A stretch of DNA of 64,000 nucleotides, taken from Rhizophagus irregularis. Lineage: Eukaryota > Glomeromycota > Glomeromycetes > Glomerales > Glomeraceae. How positions within the stretch are numbered: the stretch's first letter is position 1; every line of letters starts with the position of its first letter. Below, piece by piece: positions 2,454-50,676 of this stretch. The DNA lies in the NCBI RefSeq assembly GCF_026210795.1, contig NC_089439.1:558001-622000 (forward strand), given 5' to 3'. The notes under the pieces are model-generated. The model did not search any database. It worked only from the letters and a program-made list of their open reading frames with translations, and was not told where the DNA came from. Made by a program: the position numbers and the translations under genes.

Positions 2454-5400
2454 TTAATCAATGATTTCTATTGTATTACTACTAAAAAGACATTTCATAA
2501 ATGGATTAAGTAATCGAGATTTATAAATAGCTTGTGCATGAGTTGTTGATTTGTTGTTTTTGATTGATAAAAGATTCACTTTTCTAGATCTTTGTGTTTG
2601 TTTAAATTGTTTTTCAATTTCATAGTGTTGATGTCTCTCATTCTTAAATTCTTGATTTAATGAATTATAAAATAATTCAATTATTTCTTTTATTTCAGTA
2701 GAATTTGGTCTATTATTTGGATTTCCATCCCAACACTTTTTCATTAAATCAATATAACATTTTGGCGCAATTTTCTCATTGATTTCGGGTCTAATCCCAT
2801 TACAGATATTTAATACCAAAACCTCATCATGAGCACAATCAGCAAAGGGTTGTCCTCCAGTTGCCACAACATACATTATCATACCGAAACTAAATATATC
2901 TGCAGCTTGAGTGTAGGGTTTTCCTTTTAATACTTCAGGAGCTACATAAGGTATAACTCCATAAACATTTGATTCATCATCATCATCAATTTTTCTATAC
3001 AAACTCATGTCAGAAATACATGCATTAAAATTATTATTCATAAATAATATATTCCCCATATGAAAATCATGATGAACCATCTGTTTTTCATGGATTTTAT
3101 TAAGACCTCCAATAATATTAGTTAATACTTTTAACCCAATAAACCAATCAAACCTTTCGTAATTTTTTTCCAAATAATTATTGAAATTTCCACCTTCTGC
3201 ATATTCAAGAACCATAATATGATCTTTTGTATTTGGATTTTGTGATATTCCATACAATTTAATTATATTATTCATCTTTTGATTTTGATATTCTTTAACC
3301 TATTAAATATACATTAACATATATAAAAATTACTCTGGTAAATAATTATAAAGAAATCATACCTTATTTATAAACTTATCGATAAAATTTTGTGAATTAT
3401 GTAACCATTTTAAAGCAACTCTTGTATTTGGTTTTCTTTGCCAATATTTTCCTCCAATAGAATCTCTTTTATTATGAAATAATAAACCATCTTTCCATAT
3501 TGCTGAATATACCGTAGAAAAACCACCTTTTCCTATTTCTTTAATATTACTAAACTGATCATATGGTATCCATTCAAACATCATATCAAATTCATCAGAG
3601 TTATGATCAATGCTTAATTTCATTTCTTGAACCAAATCACCAATTTTTTTATTTTCATGGTTGGTTTGACATAACATACAGCTTTTATATTTTATTTCAA
3701 ACTCATTGTTGTATTTTTTATAACAGTTTATACAATAATATTTATCCTGAAGTACTAAAATAAAATCTTTTGTAATTGGATTTTGAGATATACCATAACT
3801 CTCCTTTATTGAATACATAATCTGTTATAATAAAATATTATATTAATAATTGATGATAATTAAGATATATTTACAGAAATTTCATACCTCATTTAAAAAT
3901 TTCTTATTAACGTTTTGTGAATTATAGAGATATTTTAGTAAAACTTTACCATTTAATTTCCTTTTATATTTTTTGTCTATATTACTGTAATATAATGGAC
4001 CATCTTTCCATATTGCCCTGGCAAATCCACTTTTTCCTGTTTCATTAATATCAATGAACTTGTTATATGGTATCCATTCAAATATTTCATTTTGACATGT
4101 ATTATTTATTTTTAATTGCATTTTTTGAATGAAATCATCGATTTTCTCATTTCCACTGGTCCAGTTTGTAAAATCATTCTTTAAATAATTTATTAGACAT
4201 AAACTACACCATTTGTAATATTTATTTTCATATTTATTGCCACATTTTTCACAATACTCTTCAAAATATTCACAATTAAAAATTAAAATATAATCTTTTG
4301 TGTCTGGATTTTGAGATATTCCATAACACCCATAAATTGGTTTATCATCTGTACTAATGTTACAATAAGAATAATCCAAGAAAGATTCCGCCTAATAATA
4401 TAAAAGAAAATTAACATTATATTAATATTCAAACTATGTTAATAGAAATTTTAATACCTTATTTATAATTTCGTCAGTGACGTTTTGTGAATTATGTAAA
4501 TATCTTAAACAAACTTTTTCGTATGATGCTCTAACCCACTCCTTTTTATATGTATCATAATATGATGGACCTTCCTTCCAAATTGCTGTAGTTAAACAAC
4601 TATCTCCTATTTCTTTGATATAAATAAGCTCGGTATATGGTACCCATTCAAATATTATGGTATTTTCATTACTCATTTTCAATTGTTTTTCTTGAATGAA
4701 ATCATCAATTTTTTTGTCTCCACTGGTCCAATTTATAAAATTATTTTTTAAATAATTTATTAGACATGATCTACAGCATTTATGATTTAATTTTGTATAT
4801 TCTTTATCACATTCTTTGCAATATTTATTATAATATTTATTATGAACCACCAAAATATAATCTTTTGTATTCGGATTTTGAGATATCCCATAACATTTAT
4901 ATGATACAGTAACCTATTTAAATATACAAAAAAAAAATAAATTATTATCTAGAAAATAAATTGATGGTTTGAGAAATTCGTACTTCATTTACCTCATTAA
5001 AAAATTCATCAGTAAAATCTTGTGGGTTAAATAAATATTTTAATACAACACCTTTATATGAATCTCTTATCCATTCCTTTCTAATATTGACAAAATATAG
5101 TGGACCTTCCTTCCAAATTGCTACACAGAATCCTTTTCCTAGTTCTTTAATTTCAACTAATTCGTTATATGGTATCCATTCAAATATTAAATCATACCTT
5201 CCTTTAATATTTAATTGCTTCTTTTGAATAAAATTATCAATTTTCTCATCTTCACTGGTCCAGTTAATAAAATTATCTTTAAAATGATTTATATGACATG
5301 ATTTACACCATTTTCCATCATGATAATTACCATATCTTTCACCACATTTTTTACAATAAGAGGCTAAATAATCATCGTAAAAAACCAAAATATAATCTTT

Positions 5401-5821
5401 TGTGACTGGATTCTGGGATATCCCATAATCTCCGTCATAATTTAGTAAATATGATTCAATCTATTAAAATTCAAAGAAATTAATATCATACTAATATTCA
5501 AATTAAACTTGTAAAAAAATTTATTACCTTTTTTATAAATTCATTAGTAATATTTTCTGAGTAATATAAAGTTTTTAATATAACTTTTTCATATGATGAT
5601 CTTATACATTCCTCTCCATAATAAAATAATGGACCTTCCTTCCATATTGCTGTAGAAAAACCTCCTTCTCCTATCTCTTTAATTTCAATAAACTTATCGT
5701 ATGATATCCATTCAAATACTGCCGTTCGATCACTATATTTTAATTGCTTTTCTTGAATGAAATTATCAATTATTTCATTCCCACTTGTCCAATTTGCAAA
5801 ATTGTTTGTAAGAAATTCCAT
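2454..5821 (-). CDS. Multi-N-lobe kinase-like protein, copy A
   Basis: Predicted protein of about 1008 residues from six phase-0 exons: 5528-5821, 4993-5460, 4458-4913, 3888-4391, 3363-3821 and 2454-3299. Exons 1-5 each encode a protein-kinase N-lobe; exon 6 encodes the only C-lobe. Exons 2-5 start with the hinge-like YGISQNP, then a Cys-pair zinc-ribbon-like segment, then FEWIPY and the lobe. In exons 1-4 the glycine loop is shortened (GGFSTAIW in place of GGFSTVYSAIW). Exon 5 keeps the full GKGGFSTVYSAIW and the VAIK-type lysine (VALKWL). The C-lobe has HHDFHMGN at the catalytic loop (HHD for HRD), SDMS for DFG, VAPEVLKGK, and DIFSFGMIMY. The family is the expanded TKL-like kinase set of glomeromycotan fungi (my recognition). 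The C-terminus stops at EIID, shorter than in B and C, and lacks their possible last intron. Activity is doubtful because of HHD and DMS, although the Asp itself is kept. Alternatively the exons could be separate degenerate genes, but phase and splice sites argue for one transcript. Confidence 0.8.
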
Positions 5822-9774: not shown

Positions 9775-12700
9775 TTACAAGCTATAAAATAAAGTAAGAA
9801 TAAGAAATGAGACAAATAAAAAAATAGCAAAATAAAAAATACACTTACTTTGTAAAATCAGTAATTTCTACTGTACTGGAAATATTTTTTGTATAAGGGT
9901 TAAGTAATCGAGATCTATAAATAGCTTGTGTATGGGTAGTTGATTTGTTTTTCTTAATTGATAAAAGATATTCTTTTCTATATTCTTGTGTTTCTTCAAA
10001 TTTTTCCTTAATTTCATCAAGTTGTTGTATATTTTTTAGTATACTTTTTTGATATTCTCTATTTTTTTGATCTAATGAATTATAAAATAATTCAATCATT
10101 TCTTTTATTTCAATAGAATTTGGTCTATTACCTGGATTTCCATCCCAACACTTTTTCATTAAATTAATATAACATTTTGGTGCAATTTTTTCATTTATCT
10201 CAGGTCTAATCTCATTACATATTTTTAATACTAAAAACTCATCATGAGCACAATCATCAAAAGGTTGTCTTCCAGTTGCTACAACATACATAATCATACC
10301 AAAGCTATATATATCTGCTGCTTGAGTATAAGGCTTTCCTTTTAACACTTCGGGAGCTACATATGGCATAACTCCATAAATATTTGCTTCATTAATATCA
10401 TCAATTTTTTTACATAACCCCATGTCAGAAATATGTGCTAAATTATTATTCATAAATAATATATTTCCTGTATGAAAATCACGATGAACCATCTGCTTTT
10501 GATGAATTCCATTAAGACTTTTAGCAATATTATTCAATACCTTTAATCCATTAAACCAATCAAACTTTTCATAATTCTTATTTAAATAATTATTGAAATC
10601 TCCTCCTTCAGCATATTCAAAAACCATAATATAATCTTTTGTATTTGGATTTTGAGATATTCCATATATTTTAAGAATATTGCCTATACTACTATTTGAG
10701 TATACTTTAACCTATTATATAACATAAATATATATTAATATAAATTCCTTTGTTAAAAAATGCTTAAATTATAAAGAAATTTATACCTCATTTATAAATT
10801 CATCAAGAAAATTTTGTGAATTATTTAAATATTTTAAAGCAACTTTCGTATTTGGTATTCTAATTTTATTTATACTATCTAATAAACCATTTTTCCATAT
10901 TGCTGAATATACTATAGAAAAGCCCCCTTTACCTATTTCTTTAATATCATCAAACTGATCATATGGTATCCACTCAAATACTACTTTAGAATAATAATAA
11001 TCAACATTCAATTTCATTTCCTGAATCAAATCATTAATTTTTTTATTTTCACATTTTGTTTGACATGATATACAGCTTTTATTATCTATTTCAAACTTAT
11101 AATTGTATTTTTTACCACAATTTTTGCAATAATATTTAAATTGAAGAACCAAAATAGAATCATTTGTATTTGGATCTTGAGATATACCATAACTTTCCTC
11201 AACTAAATAAGTAATCTGTTATATAATACAATAAATTTTCGTATTAATAAATAAAATGATTATTAATAATTAAAATTAAACTTCATACCTCATTTAAAAA
11301 TTTATTATTAATGTTTTGTGAACCATATAGATATTTTAATAAAACTTCCTCATTTAATTTCCTTTTATATTTCTTGTTAGATATACTATAATATAATGGG
11401 CCATCTTTCCATATTGCTGTAAAAAAGCCACCTTTTTCAGTTTCATTAATTTCAATAAACTTATTGTATGGTATCCATTCAAATATTGTATCTTTATACT
11501 CATTAATCATTAATTGGTTTTTTTGAATTAGACTATCAATTTTTTCATTTCCGCTAGTCCAGTTTGTAAAATTATCTTTTAAATGATTTATTTGACATAA
11601 TTTACACCATTTTTCATATTCATTATCACATTTTTCATATTCATTACCACATTTTTCACAATAATAGTCAAAATATTCAATATTAAAAACCAAAATATAA
11701 TCTCTTGTATCTGGGTTTTGAGACACTCCATAGTCCATTTTATTTGTTAAATATGATTCAATCTAATAAATATAAAATAATTAATATTATATTAAAAATA
11801 AATATTTAAAACAATTTAATACCTTATTATTTATAAATTCATCAGTAACATTTTGAGAATAACTGAGATATTTTAAAAAAACTTTTTTGGATAATGTTCT
11901 CATCCATTTCTTTTCATGAGTATTATAAATTAAAGGACCTTCTTTCCATATTGCTGTAGTTAAGCAATTATCTCCAACTTTTTTGATTTCAATAAACTTA
12001 TTATATGGTATCCATTCAAATATATTAGAACTTTCAATACTAGTTTTTAATTGCCTTTTTCGAATGAAATCATCAATTTTTTCATTTCCACTGGTCCAAT
12101 TTATAAGATTACTTCCTAGATATTTTATTAAGCATGATTCACAACACTTATGGTTTAATTTTGTATATTCTTTATCACATTCTTTGCAATATTTATTATA
12201 ATATTTATTATGAACCACCAAAATATAATCTTTTGTATTTGGATTTTGAGATATTCCATAACAATCAATTGAAGTAGTAGCCTATTTAAATATAAGAAAA
12301 AAATATTAATATCTTAAAAAATAAATAAGCTACATTTAAAGAAATACAAACCTCATTTAAAGATTCATCAGTAATATTTTGCGAGTCAGATAAATATTTT
12401 AATACAACTTTTTTAGGTTCTTTAATCCATTCCTTTTCAACAACATCATAATGCAGTGAACCTTCCTTCCAAATTTCTACAAAAAATCCAACTTTTCCTA
12501 TTTCTTTAATTTCAACTAACTCATTGTATGGTATCCAATCGAATATTAAATCATAACTTGTCTTAATATTTAATTGCTTCATTTGAATAAAATTATCAAT
12601 TATTTCATTTCCACTAGTCCAGTTTGTAAAATTATTTTTTAAATAATTTACATGACATGATTTACACCATTTATGATTTCGATCTATCCAATAACGATCA

Positions 12701-13252
12701 TAATTTTTATGATCTCGATCTATCCAATAACGATCATAATTTTTATAATCATCAAAAATATATTTATATTGTTCTCCACATCTTTCACAGTAATAATTAT
12801 TGTTTAAAACTAAAATATAATTTCTTGTATCTGGATTTTGAGATATTCCATAATCCGAGTAAGAATCATCTAATAAATATGATTTAATCTATCAAAATAC
12901 AAAAGAAATTAATATTATACTAATATCAAAATAAATTCGTAAAAAATTTTATTACCTTATTTATAAATTCATCAGTAATATTTTCTGAGTCAGATAAAAA
13001 TCTTAATATAACTTTTTCATATGATGTTCTTATCCATTCCTCTTCATTTTTATCATAACTTAATGAACCATCCCTCCATATTGCTGTGGCAAAATCACTT
13101 TCTTCTATCTTTTCAATTTCAATAAACTTATCGTATGGTATCCATTCGAATGCTACACCATATTTGTATTTTGATTGCTTTTCCTGAATGAAATTATCAA
13201 TTATTTCATTCCCACTGGTCAAATTTGCAAAATTTTTTGTAAGAAATTCCAT
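9775..13252 (-). CDS. Multi-N-lobe kinase-like protein, copy B (intact catalytic loop)
   Basis: Same layout as copy A: exons 12956-13252, 12352-12888, 11823-12281, 11289-11762, 10787-11215 and 9849-10711, about 1020 residues. A strong donor (GTAAGTGT) at the end of exon 6 and an acceptor before 9781 suggest a seventh mini-exon (9775-9781) giving Asn-Leu-stop. Without that splice the frame stops at 9845. Exons 1-4 carry degenerate N-lobes with the three-residue gap in the glycine loop. Exon 5 has a full loop (GKGGFSIVYSAIW) and VALKYL. The C-lobe has HRDFHTGN, ISDMGLC and VAPEVLKGKPY, so this is the copy best suited to phosphotransfer, with DMG in place of DFG as is usual in this family. Exon 2 is longer than in A and C because of a 36-bp in-frame tandem duplication between the two Cys pairs. 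The tail after the kinase (EIKEKFEETQEYRKEYL) looks helical. Substrate and pathway are unknown. Confidence 0.82.
12671..12742 (-). repeat. Two-copy 36-bp in-frame repeat inside exon 2 of copy B
   Basis: Bases 12671-12706 and 12707-12742 are almost identical. They encode two copies of a 12-residue segment rich in Tyr, Asp, Arg and Trp (core YDRYWIDR). The insert lies between the two CxxC pairs and is absent from exon 2 of copies A and C, so it arose after the gene duplications. It keeps the frame open. Confidence 0.8.
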
Positions 13253-15563: not shown

Positions 15564-18500
15564 TTACAAGCTATAATATGAAATAAGAATAAGAGACGAG
15601 ACAAATAAAAAAAAAATACCAGAATAAAAATACACTTACATTTTAAAATCAGTAATTTCTACTGTACTACTATTGGAAATATTTTTTGTAAAAGGATTAA
15701 GTAATCGAGATGTATAAATAGCTTGTGCATGAGTGGTTGATTTACCATTTTTAATTGATAAAAGACTTTCTTTTCTAGATTCTTGTGTTTCTTTAAACTG
15801 TTCTTCAATCTCATAGTGTTGTTGTTCCTTTTTCTTAAAATCTTGGTCTAATGAATTATAAAATAATTCAATCATTTCTTTTATTTCAATAGAATTTGGT
15901 CTATTATCTGGATTTCCATCCCAACACTTTTTCATTAAATCAATATAACATTTTGGCGCAATTTGATTATTTATTTCAGGTCTAATCCCATTATATATAT
16001 TTAATATCAAAACCTCATCATGAGCACAGTTATCAAAAGGTCGTCTCCCAGTTGCTACAACATACATTATCATACCAAAACTAAATATATCTGCTTCTCG
16101 AGTATAAGATTTTTCTTTTAACACTTCGGGAGCTACAAAAGGTATAACTCCATAAATTTTTGTTTCATTAATATCATCAATTTTTCTATATAATCCCATA
16201 TCGGAAATACATGCTTTATAATCACTAAAATAACTCAATTTTGTAAATAATATATTTCCCATATGAAAATAACAATGAACTATCTGTTTTTGATGAATTT
16301 TACTAAGACCTCCAATAACATTAGTTAATATTTTTAATCCATTAAACCAATCAAACCTCTCATAATTTTTATTCAAATAATTACTGAAATTTCCACCTTC
16401 CGCATATTCAAGAACTATAATATAGTCTTTTGTATCTGGATCTTGAGATATTCCATATAATTTAATAATATTATTCACCTTTCGATTTGAATATGTTTTA
16501 ACCTATAATAAAATATATGTATATAAATTACTTTATTATATAATTATTACAACACTATAAATTCCATACCTTGTCTATAAATTCATTAATAAGATTTTGT
16601 GATCCATGTAAACATTTTAAAGCGACTTTTGTATTTGGGTTTCTTTCATATCTATAAATAGTTTCATATAATCTACATAATAAGCCATCTTTCCATATTG
16701 CTGAATATACTGTAGAAAACCCGCCTTTACCTATTTCTCTAATGTCATCAAATTGATCATATGGTATCCATTCAAAAATCGTATTAGATTTTGAGTGATC
16801 AAGATCCAATCTCATTTCTTGGATCAAATCACTAATTTTTTTATTTTCATGGTTTGTTTGACATGACATGCAGTTCTTATTATCTATTTCAAATTTATTA
16901 TTGTATTTTTTACCACAATTTTCACAATAATTTTTAGGTCGAAGAACCAAAATAAATTCTTTTGTATTTGGGTTTTGAGATATTCCATAACTTTCCATAA
17001 TTGAAGCTGCAACCTGTTAAAATATAATGTCATTATATTAACATTAATTAATAATTAAGTTACATTTTTAGAGAATTACATACCTTACTTAATAATGTAT
17101 CATTAATATTTTGTGAATTGTATAAATATTTTAATAAAACCTTTTTATTTAATTTCCTTTTATATTTCCCTTTTATGTTACTGTAATATAATGGACCATC
17201 CTCCCATATCGCTATAGCAATGCCACCTTTCATTTCATTAATATTAATAAACTCATTGTATGGTATCCATTCAAATGTTTCACCTTTACGTGTGCTATTT
17301 ATTTTTAATTGCATTTTTTGGATAAATTCATCAATCTTTTTATTTCCACTAGTCCAGTTTATAAAATTATTTTTTAAATAATTTATTTGGCATGGTTCAC
17401 ACCAAATCCTATATTTCATACATTTATTACCACATTTTTCGCAATGATAATCAAAATATTCATTGTTAAAAACCAAAATATAATCTCTCGTATTCGAATT
17501 TTGAGATACTCCATAGTATTTTTCATCTGTTAAATATGATTCAACCTAATAAAATATAAAAATAATTAATATAATACTAAAAGTAAATTTTAAAAAAATT
17601 ACTATAATTGAATACCTTATCTATAAATTCATTGGTAACATTTTGTGAATTATACAAATATCTTAAACAAACTTTTTTATATGATGTTTTAACCCATTCC
17701 TTTTTAAGAGTATCATAAATTAATGGACCTTTTTCCCATGTTGCTGTAGTTAAACAATTACCTTCTGTTTCTTTAATTTCAATAAACTCATTATATGGTA
17801 TCCATTCAAATATGATATAACTTTCGATACTAATTTTTAATTGCTTTTTTTGGATGAAATCATCAATTTTTTCATTTCCGCTTGTCCAATTTATAAAATT
17901 ATTTTTTAAATAATTTATTAGGCATGATTCACAACACTTATAATTTATATATTCCTTGTCACATTTTTCACAATATCTTTTATAGTATTTATTATGAACC
18001 ACCAAAATATAATCTCTTGTATTTGGATTTTGAGATATTCCATAACTATCAATTGATGCAGTAGCCTATTTAAACATAAAAAAAATATCAACATCTAAAA
18101 AATAAATAAGCTACATTTATAAAGAAATTCGTACCTCATTTAAAAATTCATCAGTAATATTATTTTGTAAGTTAGATAAATATTTTAATACAACTGTTTT
18201 ATATGATTCTTTCATCCATTTCTTTTCAACAACATCATAATGCAGTGGACCTTCCTCCCAAATCGCTACAGAAAATCCACTTTTACCCATTTCTTTAATT
18301 TCAATTAACTCATTGTATGGTATCCATTCAAATATTAAATCACTTATTTTCTTAACATTTAATTGCTTCATTTGAATAAAATTATCAATTTTTTCATTTC
18401 CACTTGTCCAGTTTGTAAAATTATTTTTTAAGTGACTTATATGGCATGATTTACACCATTTATCAACAATTTCATTACCACACTTTTGACAATGATTATC

Positions 18501-27492: not shown

Positions 27493-28360
27493 TTACTGAG
27501 TTATTTCTTTCAATTTTTTGGAATTTCCAAGAACCGAATTATCAACAATAAAAGATTCGGAAGATTCATTAAATTCTTCAATTTCAATTTTAATAATACA
27601 TTTTGCTTCAAGCCAACCTGCGGCATCGACATCACATTCCCATTTTAACTTATTATCATTTTCTTCTAGGTAAATTCCAATCTTTTTACCATATTTTTGT
27701 AATATATAAAATCCACAATCAGAAAAAGGTAGTATAATTTCTTCTAACATCTTAATTTTTGGTTGAAGGAAAAAACTTTCTCTATCATGACAAGGAAATG
27801 TTATACTAATCTTATGAATATAAATTCCTTTTGCAGTTGAAATAAAAGATTCCATAATTCCGATAAATTTGTTCAACATTTCAACGTATGGATCAGGTTT
27901 TTCGATAATCGGAGGTGATGGTAATTCAATTTTTAATTGAAAAAAATCGATTTCCGATTCAATTTCTTCTTTAGTAATCATACTTGCACAACAACCCCTT
28001 GATATATCTTCTGGAGTTTGTTCATAATGTGCATAATCGCGCCAAAGGAATTTTCCTGTACGATAAAATTCTAGAATATAATGAAAAGCACGTCCATTTC
28101 TATCAAGGAACAACTCATTTCCATTTTCCAATTTTAACATTGATAAATTCTCATCTTTCAACATCGTACCAAGAAAAGATTCCGGTCGTGATAAGAGAGT
28201 ATCACGATGCGTCTCATACTATATTATGTAAGTAAATAGTTATATTTACCATGTAAGTAAATGGTTATATAATAAAATTTCGTTCCAAACTGATTCAATT
28301 AGTTACCTTAACACCACCGACATTTAAAATTATACGATCAATAGGAAGATTACTCGTCAT
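27493..28360 (-). CDS. KCTD-like BTB/T1 domain protein
   Basis: Two exons joined in phase 0: 28307-28360 (18 codons) and 27493-28218, giving about 259 residues. Exon 1 reads ...DRIILNVGGVK and exon 2 continues YETHRDTLLSRPESFLGTML. These, with FLDRNGRAFHYILEFYRTGK, are hallmarks of the potassium-channel tetramerisation (T1/BTB_2) domain of KCTD proteins, here at about residues 6-110. Such proteins oligomerise and often act as adaptors for Cullin-3 ubiquitin ligases; that is family knowledge, not shown here. The C-terminal half (about 120-259) has alternating hydrophobic and charged stretches, contains no transmembrane segment and is not recognised. The donor GTAACT and the acceptor AATATAG are visible. 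The gene stands alone between transposon debris and tandem repeats. Confidence 0.88.
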
Positions 28361-36947: not shown

Positions 36948-39029
36948 GAGAGTCAGAGAGCATTTCATTAATTATTATTTGATTTCACGTTATTTTAGGA
37001 CAAGATTTCTTATAGTTACAAGGTTTTAATAACTTAGTTACAAGTTTTAATAACTTTCTCGACCAAATATTACTCTTAAAACTGTATGTTCATAGGAATT
37101 TGAAGTTACTAAAACCAGTTACGAGTTTTTAATTATAATAGCATATTAGGTAAATCTTGAAACTATTTCGATCACAAGGCAATACTAATTCACTAACCTA
37201 GCTAGGTTTGGAAGTCGCAGTATTAATAAAACCGTCAATTTAAACCTTGATCATCATAATTAACGGAATTTCGGTATTGATCGATCAAAAATTACCCGTT
37301 GATATTGCGAGTATTGATGTAAGATAACTAAGTTTGGAAAAATAATGACAAGTGAGCATTTATAGATATATATTGTTGGAAATTCATAATTATTTTACTA
37401 TCAATGACTAAAAATAACATTAAAAATATGTCAGATATTATACTAAGAAACGTTAAGATGACTACATTTTTGTCAAAATCGGGAAATATATATGATTTGA
37501 ATTTAAAAGGTACAATGAAAATATGATTTTTCTTATTTTGGAAAACCGTACGATTATAATATTTTTTTGCTTACCTCTTATAATAAAATTTTCTCACGAA
37601 CAGATTCGCAGATTCGGAGTTTCGGACTTTGGATCATACACATTTCATACAATAGTTACAATAATACGATACATGTGAAGTACCATGTATTTTATCGATA
37701 AGTTTTCCCGTCAAATTGTCATTCTCATTATGTGACAAATAATATGGACCGGTCTAGGCCTTTACTTTTAGAGTTAAAAGTAAAATGTTGATCTTGATCT
37801 GCGGTAAATATCATCACCAGTGATTCGGAAAACTTTAGAAAAAAATTTCATATATATATATATATGTGTATATATATATATATATATATGATTATAAATT
37901 CGATACAAACTTATACCTTATCAATAAGAATAATAATATCTACAATCTACAATGAATCTTTTTTCAAATAATATTTTAGTTTGATAGTTAAAAATTATTA
38001 AAATTATTAGATCATTTTACAAAAAATGCAAAAAAAATTTTTTTTTTTTCATAACAAAAACTATGTTAAAATATTGTTTGTTAAGCTACAATATGGCGTG
38101 GTGAATTAATAATATGTATGAATTATCCAGATAAAGTATATTACTTTTTTTAAATACTTTCACATGATGATATTTGAATAAAGCCACATACATTTATTTT
38201 TCCTGTAAATATGAAAATATCATTGAAAATCACTATTATGTTCCGGGCTAACATTTTTGTCGATCATTTATTAATTTTTCCCACCGGTGTTTAGTCTCCA
38301 TTTGGAACTGAAATTATTTTTTTCAGCCAACTGGCTTTTTTGTTACGAAAAAATTTTTTTAAAAAAGAATCTTGGTTAATAAATCTGATAGTGACGCAAA
38401 CGTGTAAGTGATTACTAGATTTTTCCGGTTTATAACTTGTTGTAATTAAGGCACCCCTACTTTTTGAAGCAACGTCATAACGTTTATTAATCATAATAAG
38501 GTGGATTAAGGTTCTTTCTTATTTTGGGAGGAATTCTAAATTACTGATGAACAGCCTTTTGAAAGAGATGATCCTTGATCAACAAGATTTGAGAGGTTTA
38601 TTCATATTTAATAGCAATATAATCACAAAGTAGTAATGGTCATATGCATTTTTTGTCCACAAGCCCCAGCATTTAATGGTAAAATCTTAGAAGTAATTTA
38701 CTTCGAAACCTCCTGACGATTCAATTTTTTGAGTTTAAACTTTAAACCAACCATTAAATACAATTACAGAACGATTTTTATTGGATAGGCAATAAGTCTA
38801 TTTTTGGGTAAAATTCTTAAATGGCATACTGTTTTTTATCAACTCATTTTGTGGGCGGAAAATTACGTGAGTTTTCACATTTACCAAATACAATTATTTA
38901 ACAATCATGATCTTATCCAATGAGAATTATTTATACCGGATTCATTAAATTGATAATTTCTTTCAACTCCTTATATTGGAAACTTTGAAAAGAAAATTTC
39001 TCTCGCACAATTTATTTCTTTTTAAAGTT
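36948..39029. other. Intergenic region with TA microsatellite
   Basis: No gene is supported. A (TA)n tract, interrupted once by TGTG, lies at 37848-37890. The last 500 bp precede the large redox gene and should include its promoter; no clear TATA element could be singled out in such A/T-rich DNA. Confidence 0.4.
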
Positions 39030-42000
39030 ATGTATATCACTTTCGGCTCATATCTTATTCTCTTCATATTTTATTTATCAATCAAAACGGTTGAAAGTCG
39101 CTCTCTTGATGGAAGTGATAATAATCTTCTCTTTCCTGATAAAGGAAAACCTGCACAACCTTATCTAAGAGAGTTTCCCCCGGATCCATTTTATCCGGAT
39201 GGCAAGGGGAAAATGTTAAAATCACCTGATAGCTCGATGATCAAATGTACAGATCCTTTGCCGAAAGGAACCTATCCTTCTCCACGTTGTATCTTCAATC
39301 AATTTACGTATAATCTGAGTCCTTTGGATGTAGAACGAAAATCAGAACTTCGATCAAAACGAAAAATTAGTCATATGACGACATGGTTTGGACAATATAT
39401 TTCATTTGATATCAGCGCATCAAGAAATGAAATTTCTTCAACCCCGTTATATATACCCGCTGATGACGCAAATTATAATTCTCCTAATTCAATCCCAATC
39501 ACAAAGTCACTTCCGTTTAACATAACTGGACCCAATACCTTAGATACTACAGATACATTAAATTCTGTACGTAATGGAGTTGATGTTGTAACCCCGTTTC
39601 TTGATTTAAATATGATTTATGGTTTATCTGACGATCAACTTGCAAATTTACGTGATGGAACTAGTTGTAAATTGTTAACAAGTAATAATGGAAAATATCC
39701 ATCAAAAGATGCTGATGGAGCGTATAAATTGGGAATATCTACAAAACGGGCTTTGACTTTATTCACTTTGGCAATTAATACTGTGTGGATTCGTGAACAT
39801 AATCATCAATGTGATGAATTATTTAAAGTATATGGTAACTCTTGGAATGATCAACGATATTTTGAAGAAGCTAGACGATGGACCATTGCGTTATACCAAA
39901 AGACTGTTTCTGAAGAATATATTGGTGTTATTACTGGACGTCCTCTTCCACCTTATGAAGGATATAAACCAGATATAATTCCTGGCATTGATACTTTTTT
40001 TCCACAGTCACGTTCAGATACGGTCATTCAGAATTAAGGTTAAGTGGTTCATATTTTAAATAGATTATTTTTTTTTTAGCATGTGGTTATACGTTTTTAT
40101 TATAATTTTTTTAGTGACACGTATAGAATTCAAGATAAATTTGGTGACACGGTTGTTGATCTGACATTGAGTCAAATAAGAAATCAAAGTCTTTTAGAAA
40201 CTTTTGGCTTAAATAGTGTTTTACGTTCAATGGCTTTACAGAGACAAGAGGAGATTGACATTTTTTTCAGCGATTCTGTATGAATTACATGTATTCCTTT
40301 TTTTGAAAATACGCATTTTTTAAAAAAAGCAAAGGATTAATTTAATTTTTTATTTAATAAAGATAAGGAATTTTATAAGTATAGAACCTAACGTTTACGA
40401 TTTACCCGCATTTGATATTTTAAGGTCCAGGGATAGAGGTACTGTATATTATGGAATTTTTTTCTTTGAAATTAAAATACTTAATGTATCATTTTTTTAG
40501 GCATTGCATTGTATAACACGGTTCGAGAAGCTTATGGATTATCCAGAAAAAATACGTGGAGCGAAGTAACAAGTAATGAATATCTTCAAAATAAATTACA
40601 ATCGTTATACCCAAATGGTCCTGATACAGCAGAATCATTTGTTGGAGCTTTATGTGAAAATCATTTAGAAGGTTCAAATTTTGGAGAGCTATTAAATAAG
40701 AGCATAGTGACACAGGTAATTAAAATGAATATTAAAATTAATTAATTAATTAATTAAAATTAAGTTAAAAAATTTTTTTCTAAAAAAAATATTTTTTTTT
40801 ATAGTTTAATCGTATTCGAGAAACTGATAGATTTTGGTGGGAATCACCTGAAATGTTTAATGAAAGTGAAAGATCAATTTTAAGAGATACAACTTTTCAT
40901 GATATTATAGTTCGTAATCTTAAAATTGATGATAATAGTTCTCAATTTATTAGAAATCTTTGGATGGTTCAACCGAATAATGAATTAGTTAGCGAGGATG
41001 ACAAAGAATTTAAAACTAAAATTGATCCTTGGGCTCTTTATACTATTAGATATCGATTGGATAACACTCATATTCATTTTAAAATTGAGTTTCAAACCGC
41101 TGGAGGCGAAGGCTGGTTTGGAATGGTATGCACAAAACGTACAATACTAACGCGATCATATGTATATATTTTAACTTTTTGAATAAATTTTTATTAAGGG
41201 ATTTGATCCATCAGACACTGGTATGAAAGATGCAGAATTTATTGTAGGAATTGTAAGATCGTTTAAAATTATTTATTAAAGCTATTTTAGCTTATTTATT
41301 ACATTAAAACTGAAAATTATTATATTATCTTTTTCTTATAGGTCAAAAATCAGAATATAGATCTATCAAATTATGTCGCTGCTAAAGAAGGATATCATCC
41401 GCCTACGAAACAAAGTCTAGAAGGTCTTGAAATTAAAAACGGGACCGTTGTTACACCTGATGGTAAAGCAACAGTTATATTTAGTAGACTTTTGGAACCA
41501 CCAAATCGTAAAAAAATTCGACGTGAACAGATGAAATGTATGTAATATCCAGAAAATAGGAGACTTTATTTTAATCTTGGTCGAAACATTTTTTTTCAGC
41601 TTAATCCCAAGCTTTTAATCAAAATTTAACTCTTACAGATATTATGGCGTATAATCCAATGAGTAGCGCATTTGGTTATCATGAGCATAATCGTCAAATG
41701 ATCCTTATTAACTTCTATACAAATGAAATATCTGCATCATCTGGATTACAAAATACGCGCTTTTTTCATGGATTAGGAATGTTTTTAGCATGGTGGTACG
41801 TACAATACGTGCTATACTGTACAATATCAATTAATTATTTTATTTTAACGTTAAAAATTTTATTAGTATGTTATTCCCAACATCAATTTTTATCGTTCGG
41901 TTTTTCAAACACACCGATAATTACTTGAAGATTCATCGTTCTATACAACTGCTTGGTAGTGTTTCGGTATCCACATTCGGTGCAGCAGCAATGGCTACTA

Positions 42001-44821
42001 TGGCGAATACCAGATCTCCACACGCATGGTATTATTTAACAAATTATGCTTATTTTATGATAAATGTTTATTAATATTTTTTTTTTTCCTTAAAATATAG
42101 GTTAGGATTAATTGTTTATTTCATGGTATTTTTCCAATTAGGTTTGGGATTAACAGCTACATGGGGGCAAGGTACTATTGTTTCGGTTAACCAAGGATAT
42201 CCAAGATTTTTCAAGAGAGCTCATAAATGTTTTGGAGCTATTTTACTTTTAGCTTCTTGGTGAATTTAATTATTAAGTTTTATAATTTTAATTATTATAT
42301 AATATAAATTGTTTATTGACATGATTTTTATTCTTTTTAGGGTTAACATATATCTTGGTAAGGATAATAATCTTTTTGTCATTTTCTTTCCACTTGTGCG
42401 TGCGTATTCTAATTTTTTAATTTATTTGAAAAAAAAAATAAAGGGATAGATACTTTTACAAAATCGTATAGCTAGTGAGTATTTGTTTTACTTTGAAAAA
42501 AAAAAGGAAAAATAATACTAATTAATAATTAATTTTAGCGAATCAAGAATTTGGATTATAGTCTATTTTACATGGACATTCTTGTTAATCATTGTATTTT
42601 CTATTGGTGAATATCGATGGAGAAAAGGAGCAATTGATAGATTAGAATTTAATGAAGAAAAAAGGACTGAAGTAGGAGGAAAGAAAATTATATTATTGAA
42701 TTATATTAGTGATGACATTTATAATAAATTACCAGAATTTACTTGGGAGGAAGTAAACGAACGTGTTCAACGCGGTGTGAGTAATTTTGATCTAGTTACT
42801 GAATTTGAAAATTTTTTTTTAAAATTTTTTTTTTTTTCGTAGGCATCCTTGGTTGTATGCGATGGATTAGTCATTGATGTTAGAAAATGGATTAAAGTTC
42901 ATCCAGGTGGAGCGAAAATTCTTGAGAAAGCTATTGGAACTGATATAACTAATGGTATTATACAAGACATATATTTATTACGATACTTAAAAAAGAAAAT
43001 AAAGAAATTTTTTTTTTAATTTTCTTTTTTTTCTTTTTAGATTTTTATTGTAAAAATAATAAAAATAATAATGTAATGAATATAGTTGAAGATTTAGAAT
43101 CGGATTCACATTTGTTATCAAATTATAATACAGATAACAGATCATCAATTATAGGAAAATATGATAGTGTTTTAACAGAAATATCAACAACAGAAAATAC
43201 AATCAAAAAATTAAAAAAGTGTAGTAATGCTGCCAAAATAATTGATAAGATTAATTTAAAATATTTTTCAAAATCATCATTAACTACTATTCATTCACAT
43301 AGTATATACGCAACAAAAAAGATGTTAGATTTAGTTATAGGTAAAATGAATGAAAATTTTCTTTTAAAGGATCAAATAGAAAATTCATTATCATTTGAAT
43401 CAAAAACTATTAATGATGAAAATAATAATAATATTATGACTCATAATGAATTTACTCAAAGAATCAAATTTAGAAGATATAAATTAACTAGTAAATCAGC
43501 TATTAATTCAAGTAAAAGTTGTCCCGTAATTAAATTTACTTTTACTAAAGTTCATGATGATGATGTATGGGATGAAAGATTTTTACCTGGACATTATATT
43601 GAAGTAAAATCTCGTATTAAAGGACAAATTGTTATTAGAGGTTATACTCCTATTGAAGGGAAAATGTCAAAATCATTCTCAATATACGTTAAAGTTTATC
43701 CTAATGGATTAATGTCTACACACTTGGTAATTTTTTTTAAACATAATGTGGATAATGTGGTTAAAAATCTTAAATAATTTATTTATTTTTTTTTTTATAG
43801 AACGAACAATTAATAGGATTTGATATTCAAGTTCGTGGACCATTTGATATTTCAGATAGAATTGGACTTATAAGCGCTTCAAGCCCAGGAGAAAAATTAA
43901 GTACACCAATATTAAGAAAGAGAGGTTCGACTGTACTCTCCTCCCCAACTTCTCTAATGTCATTTACAACAAAAAGTTCTTTACTTAACCCAAATAGTTC
44001 GGATGGATGTTGGGAAGAATTATTTATGATTTGTTGGGGAACTGGCATAACACCAATGTTACAGGTATATAATTTTTGAAACTTTTTTAAGTTATATTAC
44101 ATACACATGTATATTTAATTACTTATTTATTAATATTTTGTAGTTGATTAAATATCATCTTATACATATTAGTAAAAGTCATGATTATGGACAAAGAGAT
44201 AGAAAAATTAATATGTATTTGTTATTTGGTAATAAACGTATCGAAGATATTATTGATGGTATAAGATTAGAAGAGTACGCATTATTAAGTAGAGGAATGC
44301 TTACGGTTAATTTTATACTCTTGGAACCTCCTAAAAATTGGACGGATTTAGAAGGAACGATCACGCCATCTATATTAAAAAATTGGCTTAAAGTTACTAC
44401 ATCTACATCAACTACATCACATGATAAAGAATACGATATACCTAGACCTCCAACAAAAATTGACAATATCAATATCAATTCATCTAATTCATCTCAAATA
44501 AATTCATCACAACCACCATCATCATCATTATCACAACAAAATTTTATTGAAATAATTGATGATTCAATATATGAAAGTCCAACTGAAATTCATCAAAATA
44601 TACGATCAACACCTATTTCCCAATATCGTCCATTAAATTATCAACAAAACAAACATGGTGAAAAAATATCTATAACTATTCCAACTATTCCTGAAGAATA
44701 CGTGAAAAAGTTCCAATCTAAGATTGTAGTGTGTGGTCCAATAGAAATGATGATGACCGTTGAACAAACGTTAATAGAAATGGGTTACCATTCTCAACAA
44801 GATTATATTATATTAGTATAG
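39030..44821 (+). CDS. Haem peroxidase-DOMON-cytochrome b561-cytochrome b5-FAD/NAD(P) reductase fusion
   Basis: Seventeen exons: 39030-40038, 40115-40277, 40363-40438, 40501-40715, 40805-41125, 41199-41252, 41342-41537, 41639-41795, 41867-42028, 42101-42259, 42341-42357, 42444-42474, 42539-42776, 42843-42954, 43041-43726, 43801-44064, 44144-44821; about 1512 residues. Domains: N-terminal signal or anchor (YITFGSYLILFIFYL); animal-type haem peroxidase (about 30-530) with WIREHN and proximal-His FRYGHSEL, but ISFD where families have the distal-His DHD; DOMON (about 545-715) with GWFGMGF and YHEHNR as likely haem ligands; five-helix b561 (about 718-885) with four His (FFHGLG, KIHRSI, SPHAWLG, RAHKCFG); cytochrome b5 (about 905-1065) with HPGG, an Asn-rich insert and a second His pair HSHS; FAD site IRGYTP; NAD(P) site GTGITP and VCGP. 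Five helices place the peroxidase outside and the reductase in the cytosol. Exon lengths sum to one base short of a multiple of three: a frameshift at the T run 39995-40001. No stop follows in any other exon. The ATG at 39030 is the first in frame. Confidence 0.85.
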
Positions 44822-45252
44822 AATAATTAATTAATTAATTAATAATGAACATTTAATTTAGTATTTGACAATTTTTTTTCAGATCAAAATAATTGCATCA
44901 CAAAATATCACAAATAAGAATTTTATTTTCATCTTTAAATAATTTAACGTACTATGTGTACATCATGGACAATCGTATTTAACAATTTTTTTAAGATTAA
45001 AATAATTAAAATAATTGCATCACAAATATCTCAAATTTTCATCTTAAATAATTCAACGAAAAATTTTACCCCATATTGAAGGATATCTATTAAGACTTAT
45101 ATATTCGATCCTTGAGGTCGAAAAGTACCAAATCGGGCATTTTTTGCCGTAAATCTAAATCATTATTGATTTCGACCTTCGCTGTTAGATCCTTGTGGAT
45201 CGGTAGCAGATCGCAGAGACATTGTATTATGATCATCCATCTTTCTTTCATG
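44822..45252. other. 3' flank of the redox fusion gene
   Basis: A/T-rich with short direct repeats (AAAATAATTGCATCACAAA twice). No gene. Confidence 0.4.
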
Positions 45253-46330
45253 ACCTTATATTAAATAGATGATGGTCAACCACGAATTTCACTTATATCA
45301 CAAGTACAATAAAACAATAAATGGAATCTATAAAATAGTAAGAAAAAAAAGTCGTTAGTATGGCTGGTACCAGGTGGAAGAACCACCACCATACGCGTAA
45401 AAAAAAAGTCTCCAGAAAGGTGATGGTATCATACTACTCAAGTGGACACCCTAGAACTTGCACAATAAAGATTTTTTTTTTGTTTTTTTTTTTGTTTTTC
45501 TTTTTTTTGTTTTTTTTGTTGAATTTTTTTTTCATTTCTTTTCATTTCTTTTTTTTTCTATTTTTTTTTCATTTTCATTTTTTTTTCTTTTTTTTTATAT
45601 TTTTTTTTCTTTTATTTTTTGTCACCTTTTTTAACCCCTACTGTAATGGTCCTTTGGGATATCACTGACAATATGATACCATGCATACGAGCCAGGTGCA
45701 TAGGCTAACCCTCCTCCAGGAAAGCCAGTTTCTCATATATACTCCCTTTCAACTTTTTTTATCTGTAAGCCTGTATCATTAAAACTATGCAAGCAGGGAG
45801 CGCATGCTTACCTTATAAATAGATGATAGTCTACCCGAATTTCAACTATCCTTCTTTAATCACAAGTACAATAAATGGAATCTATAAAATAGTAAGAAAA
45901 AAAAGTCGATAGTATGGCTGGTACCAGGTGGAAGAACCACCACCATACGCGTAAAAAAAAAGTCTCCAGAAAGGTGATGGTATCATACTACTCAAGTGGA
46001 CACCCTAGAACTTGCACAATAAAGATTTTTTTTTTTTTTTTTTGTTGAATTTTTTTTTTCATTTCTTTTTATTTTTTTTTACCTTTTTTTATATATTTTT
46101 TTTTATATTTTTTTTTCTTTTATTTTTTTTTAAACCCCTACTGTTATAGTCCTTTGGGATACCATTGACAATATGACACCATGCATACGAGCCAGGTGCA
46201 TAGGCTAACCTCCTCCAGGAAAGCCAGTTTCTCATATATACTCCCCTTCAACTTTTTTTATCTGTAAGCCTGTATCATTAAAACTATGCAAGCAGGGAGC
46301 GCATGCTTACCTTAATATAGGTCTACCGTA
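45253..46330. repeat. Tandem duplication of a 554-bp unit with a strong hairpin
   Basis: Two copies offset by 554 bp (GTATGGCTGGTACC at 45358 and 45912). Each holds a near-identical block of about 150 bp ending ACTTGCACAATAAAGA, a T-rich centre of variable length, and a second conserved block (45640-45815 and 46137-46314) ending GCAGGGAGCGCATGCTTACC. The first block contains a hairpin: GTATGG pairs with CCATAC and GGTGG with CCACC around an AAGAA loop. A third unit may start after 46314. The higher GC of the conserved blocks suggests a dispersed repeat or an RNA-derived element. No pol III B-box was found. Confidence 0.8.
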
Positions 46331-48234: not shown

Positions 48235-50676
48235 TTAATTATCTACTATCATATCATATCCAGATATACTTTTAAAAGCTGGAAATTGATCATCAATACT
48301 TGAAAATGATACGTGTAACTTATTATTGGACGACAACATCGACGTTTCAGTAACCTTATCAATAACATTATCAAAAGCAATCCAATTAAAATAAATTTTA
48401 GATTCATCTATATCACACAAATTTGCCCAACCTTCCTTGTCAAAATAATTCATAACTTTTCTTTCATCGATCTTATCCATAGCAATTTGAAATACTAGTA
48501 ATATTTTATCCTCACAATCCCAGATAAGAAAATCCATACCAGGGTATTTGGTATATTCTGGAATAAAGAGAACATTATTGTACTCATTAAAATCTTTGAT
48601 AGAAAATATGTCATTATCAACAATCCTAATGACTTCATCAAAATTAACATTTTTATCAAATATATTTAAACTTGGAATTCCAAATTGCCTAAATTAATAG
48701 TGTTTATATATTAGCTTATTTGATCATGATCAAAGATATAATGAAATTCGAATTATAAAAATGAAAGGATCATTGGGATTTAAATATCAAATTTCATATA
48801 ATCAGAAAGTAGGCGATATGTAATTAGTTTCACTTACCAACATGTGAATTCAAATGTTCTCACAGTATCTAATAATGTTGTAATATACGATGCAGAAATC
48901 CTTTCCAAAGCATAAATTGTGTATTCAACATTTTGTAGAGCCTTTGATGCAGCATCATCAATTAGATCATCAATTTGACCATGAGCACGAGCGATGGTTA
49001 ATCTAGCGCAAGGGTGGATAGCAAGAACTGTTTCAGTTTCAAATTCTTCATTTTCATCCAGAAATGAAACAGAACCAACACGCATAAATCGGTGATCCAT
49101 ATCATATATTTTACTGGCAGGGGGTTCAATTTGGAGAATCATGGAAACAACACATGCATTTAAATTTTCTACTCTCTCATATGATAAATTATCTCGATAA
49201 ATTTGATAATCTCTTTTTATTTCACTTTCTCGTAATCCCAAATAATTTTCAGTTTTTTCCTGCAAATTTCCTGCTGGTGTTTCATGCCACTTGTCTAATT
49301 CTGAAGGATAGGCGCCCGTCCAATATTTCACATAATCCAACTGTGCCATATCGTTATAACCACGCAATTTGCACCATTGATTGAACTCATCGTCATCATA
49401 ACCGTCGAATAGACCCAACTTATCCCATGATTTAAACAGGCATACATCATTGTTAGAAGTTTCTGAAACGATAATAAGACCATCATTCTTTAGAATTCCA
49501 GAAAGACCATTTACCAATACGAATGGATATTCATTAAGAACCTCGTATTTGTACAAGGAATTACATTGATCAAAGACCCAGATCCAGTAATAATCATTTT
49601 TAACAAAGTTTACCAATTCCTTGAGACATAAATGAAATCGTTCTTTCCTAATGAAAAGAAGAATCAGTGATATGATTTACAAATATCGTATATCGTGTAA
49701 AAAAATTAACAAATATCAGAGTAAATTACCTAGTATTTGTCTCGGGTTGTTTAAGATGTTCAATGATTCTATTAACCCTGGAATTATGTAATAAACTTTT
49801 ATCACACAACTTGTTACGTACGTTATTTGTTAATCCATACATCACAAGTTCAACCCAATCAGTTATGGTAAGCGGGGTTAATTCATCTTTGTTGAAAGTA
49901 CATAAAAATTCGTTTAATAGGTATTGATAAGGTTCAATTTGATGAGATGACCACCACTCTTCACAATTATTAATATACGTTACTCTATAATCATGTTGTA
50001 AACGAAGTTCTGAAACAAGATAATACAAGCTGTACGACTTTCCCAAACCAGAAGGACCATAAATATGTAGACCTCTAGAACTATTTTCTTCATTGAGTGC
50101 TTTCATTATAGCATTATAGATTTGATCATGATGATTTCTACGTATTAAAGATAATTTACCATTCACAAAATGGAAACTATCTTGAAGTTTATTTGGACTC
50201 AACCTTGGTAGATCGACAACATCATAAAGATCTTCCATAATTTCAAGAAGTATTTTATCTGTTTCTCTTGCTTGTTGAACAAGTGCGACAAATGGGTCTA
50301 ATTGATCTTCAAGTTCATTAACCTTCACTTTTTTTCTACTAGGATATATGATGGGTACAATTGACATGAAGGCTCTTTCTTTACCCTTCGTACTTAAAAA
50401 AGAAGAAGAAGAAGCAGCAGCAAAACTTGAAGAAGAACTAGCTATTTTTTAATCATAAAAAGTTAGAATTGATTTTTTCATAATGCAACAATGTTTTTTC
50501 TTAAAATTACCAAATGATGGTCCTGCCAAAGAAGGTCGCTTTGTTCTCTCCGTTATTTGTCCAGAGAATTCTTCCATATTTTCAACCTTTCTTTTATGTG
50601 CACCATTTGATTTTACACCACCCGATGACATGGTGTCCATAAAATCTATGATATCATTAAAATATGTTAAATACAT
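48235..50676 (-). CDS. Crinkler-type (CRN-like) P-loop NTPase with C-terminal nuclease-like domain
   Basis: Four exons, 50511-50676, 49730-50441, 48838-49647 and 48235-48688, sum to 714 codons including the stop, in frame throughout. After a Ser/Lys-rich N-terminus (with possible starts at 50676 or at ATGs about 12-15 codons later) comes a Ser/Ala-rich stretch. A P-loop follows with Walker A GPSGLGKS (about 184-191) and a Walker B-like WVFDQ (about 313). The middle is mixed helical. Near residue 612 the motif PGMDFLIWD, followed by LLVFQIA, resembles the core of the PD-(D/E)XK restriction-nuclease fold. NTPase plus REase-like is the known layout of many CRN-type effectors in oomycetes, chytrids and glomeromycotan fungi. 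The usual conserved LxLFLAK-type N-terminal region and a signal peptide are not evident. No stop interrupts the model. The usual second acidic or Lys residue of the nuclease core is not obvious, so activity is uncertain. Confidence 0.8.

Follow-up and report, generated by a model that had tools for sequence, protein, structure and literature searches.

A peroxidase-homology domain joined to a predicted trans-membrane electron conduit in Rhizophagus irregularis and other fungi

A 64,000-nucleotide stretch of the Rhizophagus irregularis genome (RefSeq GCF_026210795.1, contig NC_089439.1, positions 558,001 to 622,000, forward strand; the window) carries at 39030..44821, on the + strand, a gene whose predicted product joins, from N- to C-terminus, the Pfam domains An_peroxidase, DOMON, Cytochrom_B561, Cyt-b5, FAD_binding_6 and NAD_binding_1. 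On comparison of the sequences this architecture is real and conserved; it resembles both the DUOX enzymes of animals and the DOMON-b561 proteins known as CYBDOM, and fails a defining feature of each. The protein is probably a single-chain, NAD(P)H-driven conduit that would move electrons outward across a membrane, with a cap that would not act as a peroxidase.

Results

One predicted gene encodes all the modules

The original prediction, made from the letters of the window, placed these modules in one polypeptide, and its coordinates, module order and number of exons agree with our final model. In a Pfam scan all modules were matched in the predicted order on the + strand, each above its gathering score (b561 by only 3 bits). 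The prediction also called the model continuous and phase-consistent: the 17 exons and the intron phases stand, but exon 1 shifts frame within a run of T. The features of the gene are as follows (all on the + strand, with Pfam values in brackets).

39030..44821: whole gene, 17 exons, ATG at 39030, stop codon ending at 44821, about 1512 residues
Exons 1 to 6: 39030-40038, 40115-40277, 40363-40438, 40501-40715, 40805-41125, 41199-41252
Exons 7 to 12: 41342-41537, 41639-41795, 41867-42028, 42101-42259, 42341-42357, 42444-42474
Exons 13 to 17: 42539-42776, 42843-42954, 43041-43726, 43801-44064, 44144-44821
39030..39098: N-terminal hydrophobic segment, probable signal peptide judging from hydropathy (peak at residues 3-21)
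39099..40933: peroxidase-homology domain, residues 24-531, exons 1-5 (An_peroxidase, 7.4e-86)
39387..39416: distal haem-side motif FGQYISFDIS, Phe126 at the usual position of the distal His
39995..40001: T-run where the frame of exon 1 changes; two other R. irregularis records (P0045, P0065) are unbroken at the same place
40025..40027: proximal His, motif FRYGHSELSD, downstream of the frame break
41039..41682: DOMON domain, Pfam residues 567-683 (1e-11), putative haem ligands Met604 and His693
41767..42448: cytochrome b561 transmembrane domain, Pfam Cytochrom_B561 residues 722-845 (1.2e-5), His722, His754, His783 and His826
Residues 858-876, exon 13: fifth hydrophobic helix after b561, from the family mean hydropathy profile
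42741..43300: cytochrome b5 domain, interrupted by a long insert (Cyt-b5, residues 922-973, 7e-10, first part), HPGG His953 and HSHS His1057
43526..43845: FAD-binding half of the flavin reductase, motif RGYTPIE (FAD_binding_6, residues 1133-1214, 1.2e-11)
44026..44821: NAD(P)-binding half (NAD_binding_1, residues 1275-1371, 3.1e-11), with an insert of low complexity ahead of the C-terminal motif VVCGPIEMM

The gene structure rests on homology. Three protein searches returned 115 proteins (P numbers), of which 28 that do not belong to the family were excluded (P0023, P0024, P0088 and P0091-P0115), leaving 87 relatives; two of the searches scored the 8000 and 7999 candidates that shared most words with the query, and the lineages named below are those found in this way rather than an exhaustive list. 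Relatives guided three corrections that turned an initial 16-exon model into the final one: the junction between exons 1 and 2, the position at which exon 8 starts, and the division of one stretch into exons of 17 and 31 nucleotides, the latter a micro-exon at 42444-42474. With these corrections the Pfam scores rose from 273.5 to 289.2 bits for An_peroxidase, from 41.4 to 45.5 for DOMON and from 25.7 to 26.1 for b561, the three others (b5, FAD_binding_6 and NAD_binding_1) remaining the same or nearly so. All 16 introns are bounded by GT...AG and measure 62-101 bases, and their phases agree except at the break in exon 1. None of 73 tblastn matches obtained with eight family proteins as queries starts outside 38900-44900, hence no second copy or fragment was found within the window.

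The first two relative searches and the solved-structure search of the peroxidase part were made with the provisional 16-exon model, as was the comparison of the whole chain with R. clarus P0001 (74% identity); Pfam figures and the structure searches of the other parts refer to the final model. The peroxidase part is 83% identical to that of P0001 over 499 columns, the DOMON part 82% (104/127) and the b561 part 79% (148/187). The nearest solved relative of the peroxidase part is Dictyostelium peroxinectin A (6erc). The flavin reductase is closest to NADH-cytochrome b5 reductases and cytochrome b5 reductase 4, its NAD(P) half also matching nitrate reductase. The inserts in the b5 and NAD parts are too variable for interpretation. 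In the window protein, neither a Ferric_reduct core nor EF-hands were detected by Pfam at E 0.1.

The break in exon 1 lies just upstream of the proximal-His motif, and the model reads across it with an X. The initial model ended exon 1 at an unlikely donor and apparently lacked the proximal His; relatives show both to be artefacts of the frame break, and a loss of both peroxidase ligands is therefore rejected for the window gene. The break could also mean that the copy is a pseudogene in this strain, which we consider quite improbable: the remaining frame is open across 16 further exons, the chain keeps the identity to R. clarus given above, and both same-species records, P0045 (from strain DAOM 181602=197198) and P0065, are continuous at the T-run. 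Such runs are a frequent site of sequencing errors. The window and P0045 are identical at 513 of 514 peroxidase residues, the sole difference being the X at the break, and at all residues of the linker (35/35) and of the DOMON part (128/128).

The peroxidase-homology domain lacks the distal His

Ligands were counted by alignment among the relatives that have sequence at the site. Distal His, Arg and Gln and proximal His and Asn, to which we presume myeloperoxidase-style roles, were likewise assigned by alignment. A second peroxidase alignment, also used for the peroxidase tree, comprises 25 rows of the family, which counts 88 with the window, and 23 of the 28 other proteins (P0111-P0115 omitted).

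The distal His was found in none of 63 relatives, which have Phe (32), Leu (9), Met (7), Tyr (6), Ser (3), Ala (1), Ile (1) or a gap (4) at this position, and in none of the 25 family rows of the second alignment; it is present in 19 of the 23 other peroxidases, the remainder being three gaps and one Ala, in the insect DUOX P0024. Distal Gln is kept in 26 of 63 relatives. Arg occupies the distal Arg position in three of 25 family rows, compared with 20 of 23 other peroxidases (3 gaps). This second loss is less certain, because 49 of 66 relatives have a basic residue, Arg (37) or Lys (12), at the next position. The proximal His is present in 66 of 71 relatives (three gaps, and Thr in the two Allomyces proteins) and in 23/23 other peroxidases. 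Thus, of the hallmarks of the peroxidase-cyclooxygenase superfamily, the fold, as recognized by sequence, and the proximal His were found, and the catalytic distal His was not.

As judged by these residues, the domain is a peroxidase-homology domain as in DUOX, without the residues that split peroxide, across the sampled family. Peroxide splitting is predicted to have been lost in the family, mainly on the evidence of the distal His. Most simply, the proximal His would have been retained owing to a bound haem, which is proposed because this residue is still conserved. In public records the relatives are named heme peroxidase, hypothetical, unnamed, or after the b5 domain; the first name would imply an activity that the residues do not support.

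The original prediction ended the electron path on an active outer peroxidase, to which its own reductase would supply electrons or peroxide. The strong An_peroxidase match, the conserved proximal His and the basic residue just past the usual distal Arg are in its favour; nevertheless, given that distal His is absent throughout, the partial conservation of distal Gln, the three Arg among 25 rows, and the absence of even the proximal His from both Allomyces rows, an active enzyme is extremely unlikely.

Two further observations concern this domain. Asp, which 71 of 75 relatives have where the proximal-side Asn would stand, was considered as a special trait of the family and set aside, as six of the 23 other peroxidases share it. 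The Allomyces proteins P0066 and P0067 lack both peroxidase His and keep the distal Arg motif, and the Mucoromycota members show the reverse.

Haem and flavin ligands of the putative wire are conserved

The residues expected to hold the redox cofactors are almost invariant. In the DOMON domain the Met is present in 76/76 relatives and the His in 65/68, and the four b561 His in 64/64, 67/69, 69/70 and 56/57. The b5 His pair is kept in 76/77 (HPGG) and 79/79 (HSHS) in spite of the insert in the b5 fold, the flavin Arg in 77/77, and the Gly of the NAD motif in 72/76. Hence, by alignment, the proteins have the joined DOMON and b561 domains, the Met/His pair and the four b561 His of CYBDOM proteins, together with the b5 His pair and the FAD and NAD motifs of b5 and its reductase.

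They depart from CYBDOM at the basic residues of the ascorbate side: Lys at H2-3 was found in 0/67 rows and Arg at H4-7 in 0/57; Lys or Arg is among the types listed at H2-7 in 8/67 rows, and Lys or Arg stands at H4-3 in 57/57. In fly CG8399, of the basic residues of the ascorbate site, only the H4-7 Arg is described as fully conserved (PMC10691727). The disappearance of most ascorbate-side residues fits a b5 domain in the same chain as the electron donor.

The family mean hydropathy profile has five peaks past the ectodomain (residues 723-741, 759-777, 785-803, 828-846 and 858-876). Because of these five helices and the probable N-terminal signal, the two ends of the chain would lie on opposite sides of the membrane.

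The domain order recurs in several fungal groups

Six landmarks were defined along the chain, each counted as present when at least 8 of its 25 columns held sequence. All six are present in one predicted protein in 52 of the 87 relatives, from Glomeromycotina, Mortierellaceae and Allomyces, so that the predicted order does recur in relatives, as a family of single fused polypeptides. Six chosen members were scanned with Pfam: peroxidase, DOMON, b5, FAD and NAD domains follow in this order in 6/6 (DOMON below the cut-off in Mortierella P0059), and b561 scores above the cut-off in three, below it in two, and is unlisted in P0059. In a ten-row alignment that includes P0059 and Allomyces P0066, three of the b561 His columns are nonetheless invariant and the fourth is nearly so. 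Pairwise distances in three parts of the chain are strongly correlated (r 0.923, 0.921 and 0.944; 1378 pairs from 53 rows; largest of 500 permutations 0.155), a parallel divergence that suggests one unit.

In the peroxidase tree the 23 Mucoromycota rows (Mortierellaceae and Glomeromycotina) group at 100/100. Glomeromycotina form two groups, supported at 100/99 (with the window) and at 100/100, and joined to each other weakly (88/58). Most simply, the fusion would predate the split between Mortierellaceae and Glomeromycotina. A single origin that includes Allomyces is not shown: of 200 bootstrap trees, 57% unite the family. R. irregularis has at least five further members (P0003, P0021, P0041, P0058 and P0068).

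Mortierella and Allomyces are mainly saprobes. Because the same order is found in both, the distribution gives no support to the role at the plant interface raised in the original prediction.

Evidence bearing on a split gene

The fusion could be false, gene models having merged two neighbouring genes, one for peroxidase-DOMON and one for b561-b5-reductase. P0045 (769 residues) and P0065 (578 residues), the annotated R. irregularis records found for this gene, stop early, inside b561 and inside DOMON, respectively, and the Gigaspora rosea records P0048, P0049 and P0051 consist of the b5-reductase part only. This explanation is very unlikely, considering the 52 complete relatives from several fungal groups, the identity of the DOMON and b561 parts to those of R. 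clarus, and the introns, which are so short that scant space is left for a promoter between the parts. The correlated divergence also argues for one gene, although it does not discriminate by itself. The short form of P0045 may be a wrong annotation or a real short isoform. Compared by eye with the window at 41867-42259, P0045 seems to be spliced at acceptors deeper within exons 9 and 10, so that its b561 part is cut short.

Several results count against a conserved single-chain conduit. At least one landmark is missing in 35/87 relatives, eight of which are the b5-FAD-NAD part alone; some family copies may therefore be split genes or badly called. Separate genes inherited together or side by side would also diverge in step. 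The two R. irregularis records end early as described, and the window copy carries the frame break. The DOMON-b561 part had no solved-structure match at E 0.1. Five helices are recovered in only 8/52 single members at a threshold of 1.6, in 27/52 at 1.3 and in 32/52 at 1.1. Finally, the family has only in part the acidic residues that lie near the DOMON Met in CG8399 (Asp at M-3 in 47/76 rows, Asp or Glu at M+4 in 61/76).

Other features of the window

Elsewhere in the window, three similar open reading frames (2454-3299, 9845-10711 and 15636-16502, - strand) resemble tyrosine/serine-threonine kinases (Pfam PK_Tyr_Ser-Thr), and three mutually similar frames are interleaved with them (511-1029, 4945-5460 and 12286-12888), of which the one scanned, 511-1029, had no Pfam match; together they look like a tandem array. 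An open reading frame at 27493-28218 (- strand) has a BTB_2 domain. Two adjoining frames lie at 48834-50448 (- strand), the first without a Pfam match and the second with weak ATPase, STAND NTPase and RNA_helicase matches, each below the cut-off. Just downstream of the gene, at 45314-46314, is a direct repeat whose copies are spaced about 500-554 bases from each other and whose pieces are 78-99% alike.

Discussion

A predicted path for electrons

The favoured interpretation, a probable one, is an outward conduit formed by a single chain. The C-terminal flavin reductase would accept hydride from cytosolic NAD(P)H, and the flavin would hand single electrons to the haem of the fused b5 domain. 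Electrons would then cross the membrane through two b561 haems to an outward DOMON haem, which would reduce an acceptor outside, most likely Fe(III) or Cu(II) and next O2. The outer peroxidase-homology domain would, as in DUOX, form a cap that either carries haem or has a structural role. Haem occupancy, topology and cellular site are all inferred, as are the acceptor and the path of the electrons. The wire from NAD(P)H through FAD, b5 and b561 to DOMON, proposed at the outset as a DUOX-like layout built from non-DUOX parts, is plausible, backed by correlated divergence and ligand conservation. Export to Fe(III) or Cu(II) is proposed because there is a b561-DOMON precedent in the plant protein HYP1, which exports electrons, with reduction of ferric and cupric substrates (PMC10784544); in vitro, fly CG8399 and mouse SDR2 show ferric reductase activity, for which the DOMON domain is the suggested site (PMC10691727).

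The acceptor being left open, this interpretation overlaps with that of a functional DUOX analogue, in which O2 would be reduced outside to superoxide or H2O2 and the peroxidase-homology domain would serve folding or H2O2 production, not turnover. DUOX proteins share the layout of one chain with an outer N-terminal peroxidase-homology domain that has lost haem residues, a membrane haem core and a cytosolic FAD/NAD part (PMC7794343, PMC4420034). Their peroxidase domain is described as mutated (PMC4420034), human DUOX1 lacks a haem-ligand His and no haem was seen there (PMC7794343), and P0024, the sole insect DUOX in our alignment, also lacks the distal His. On the other side, the DUOX core is Ferric_reduct/NOX with EF-hands, neither of which was found in the window protein, whose core is b561; DUOX has no DOMON, b561 or b5 domain; the insect DUOX keeps the distal Arg that most family rows do not have; and DOMON-b561 relatives are known as metal reductases. 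DUOX was not found in the fungi examined in PMC1940245, as far as its excerpts tell. We regard a DUOX analogue as possible but rather unlikely.

Still more doubtful is a rewired peroxidase-fold haem, reduced by the wire through the DOMON haem rather than oxidized by peroxide, with a hydrophobic distal pocket that would let it bind and activate O2 (or NO). If true, the protein would act outside as an oxygenase or oxidase powered by NAD(P)H, O2 activation by membrane electrons would exist besides P450 and NOX, and a DUOX-like form would have been reached independently.

Relation to known systems

The CYBDOM proteins (plant HYP1, animal SDR2, fly CG8399) share the DOMON-b561 join with its Met/His site and four b561 His (PMC10784544, PMC10691727), but they have neither the peroxidase cap nor the fused b5-reductase, and the donor of HYP1 is cytosolic ascorbate. 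The eFRE proteins of Naegleria and oomycetes also place an outer DOMON on a membrane reductase; however, a ferric reductase domain replaces b561, and a peroxidase fold and b5 are unmentioned in the excerpts of the paper, which catalogues DOMON-ferric reductases and DUOX (PMC3591440). In the sponge DspNOX, b561/DUF2427 helices are fused to an NAD(P)H oxidoreductase, but the core is NOX, and DOMON and a peroxidase cap are unmentioned in what was available of PMC9524095.

Cytochrome b5 reductase 4 (NCB5OR; 6mv1 is among the best solved matches) shares the FAD/NAD reductase part. It carries a b5 domain, is soluble and has a CS domain, which was not found in the window protein by Pfam. Fungal Ppo/linoleate diol synthases share the An_peroxidase domain; in these a P450 follows, whereas Pfam detected none in the window protein or the six scanned relatives. 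Animal-like heme peroxidases of Mucoromycota, one of them from R. irregularis, have been given a P450 architecture (PMC10629195).

Among the open-access matches listed (subscription papers and preprints lay outside the scope), none describes this domain order, in keeping with the view of the original prediction that no such enzyme had been described. Reductive iron uptake of R. irregularis is described in PMC11836134, where 'reductase' appears once. In three other papers, Mucoromycota are never named (PMC9421330), DOMON, b561 and PF03098 are all unmentioned (PMC11134847), and so are peroxidase, DOMON and b561 (PMC10386755).

In conclusion, the family would represent a second, independently assembled way of combining a trans-membrane NAD(P)H wire with a degenerate peroxidase domain. 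Its architecture raises the question of why DUOX keeps degenerate peroxidase domains, and it provides a multi-copy candidate for outward electron export in arbuscular mycorrhizal fungi.

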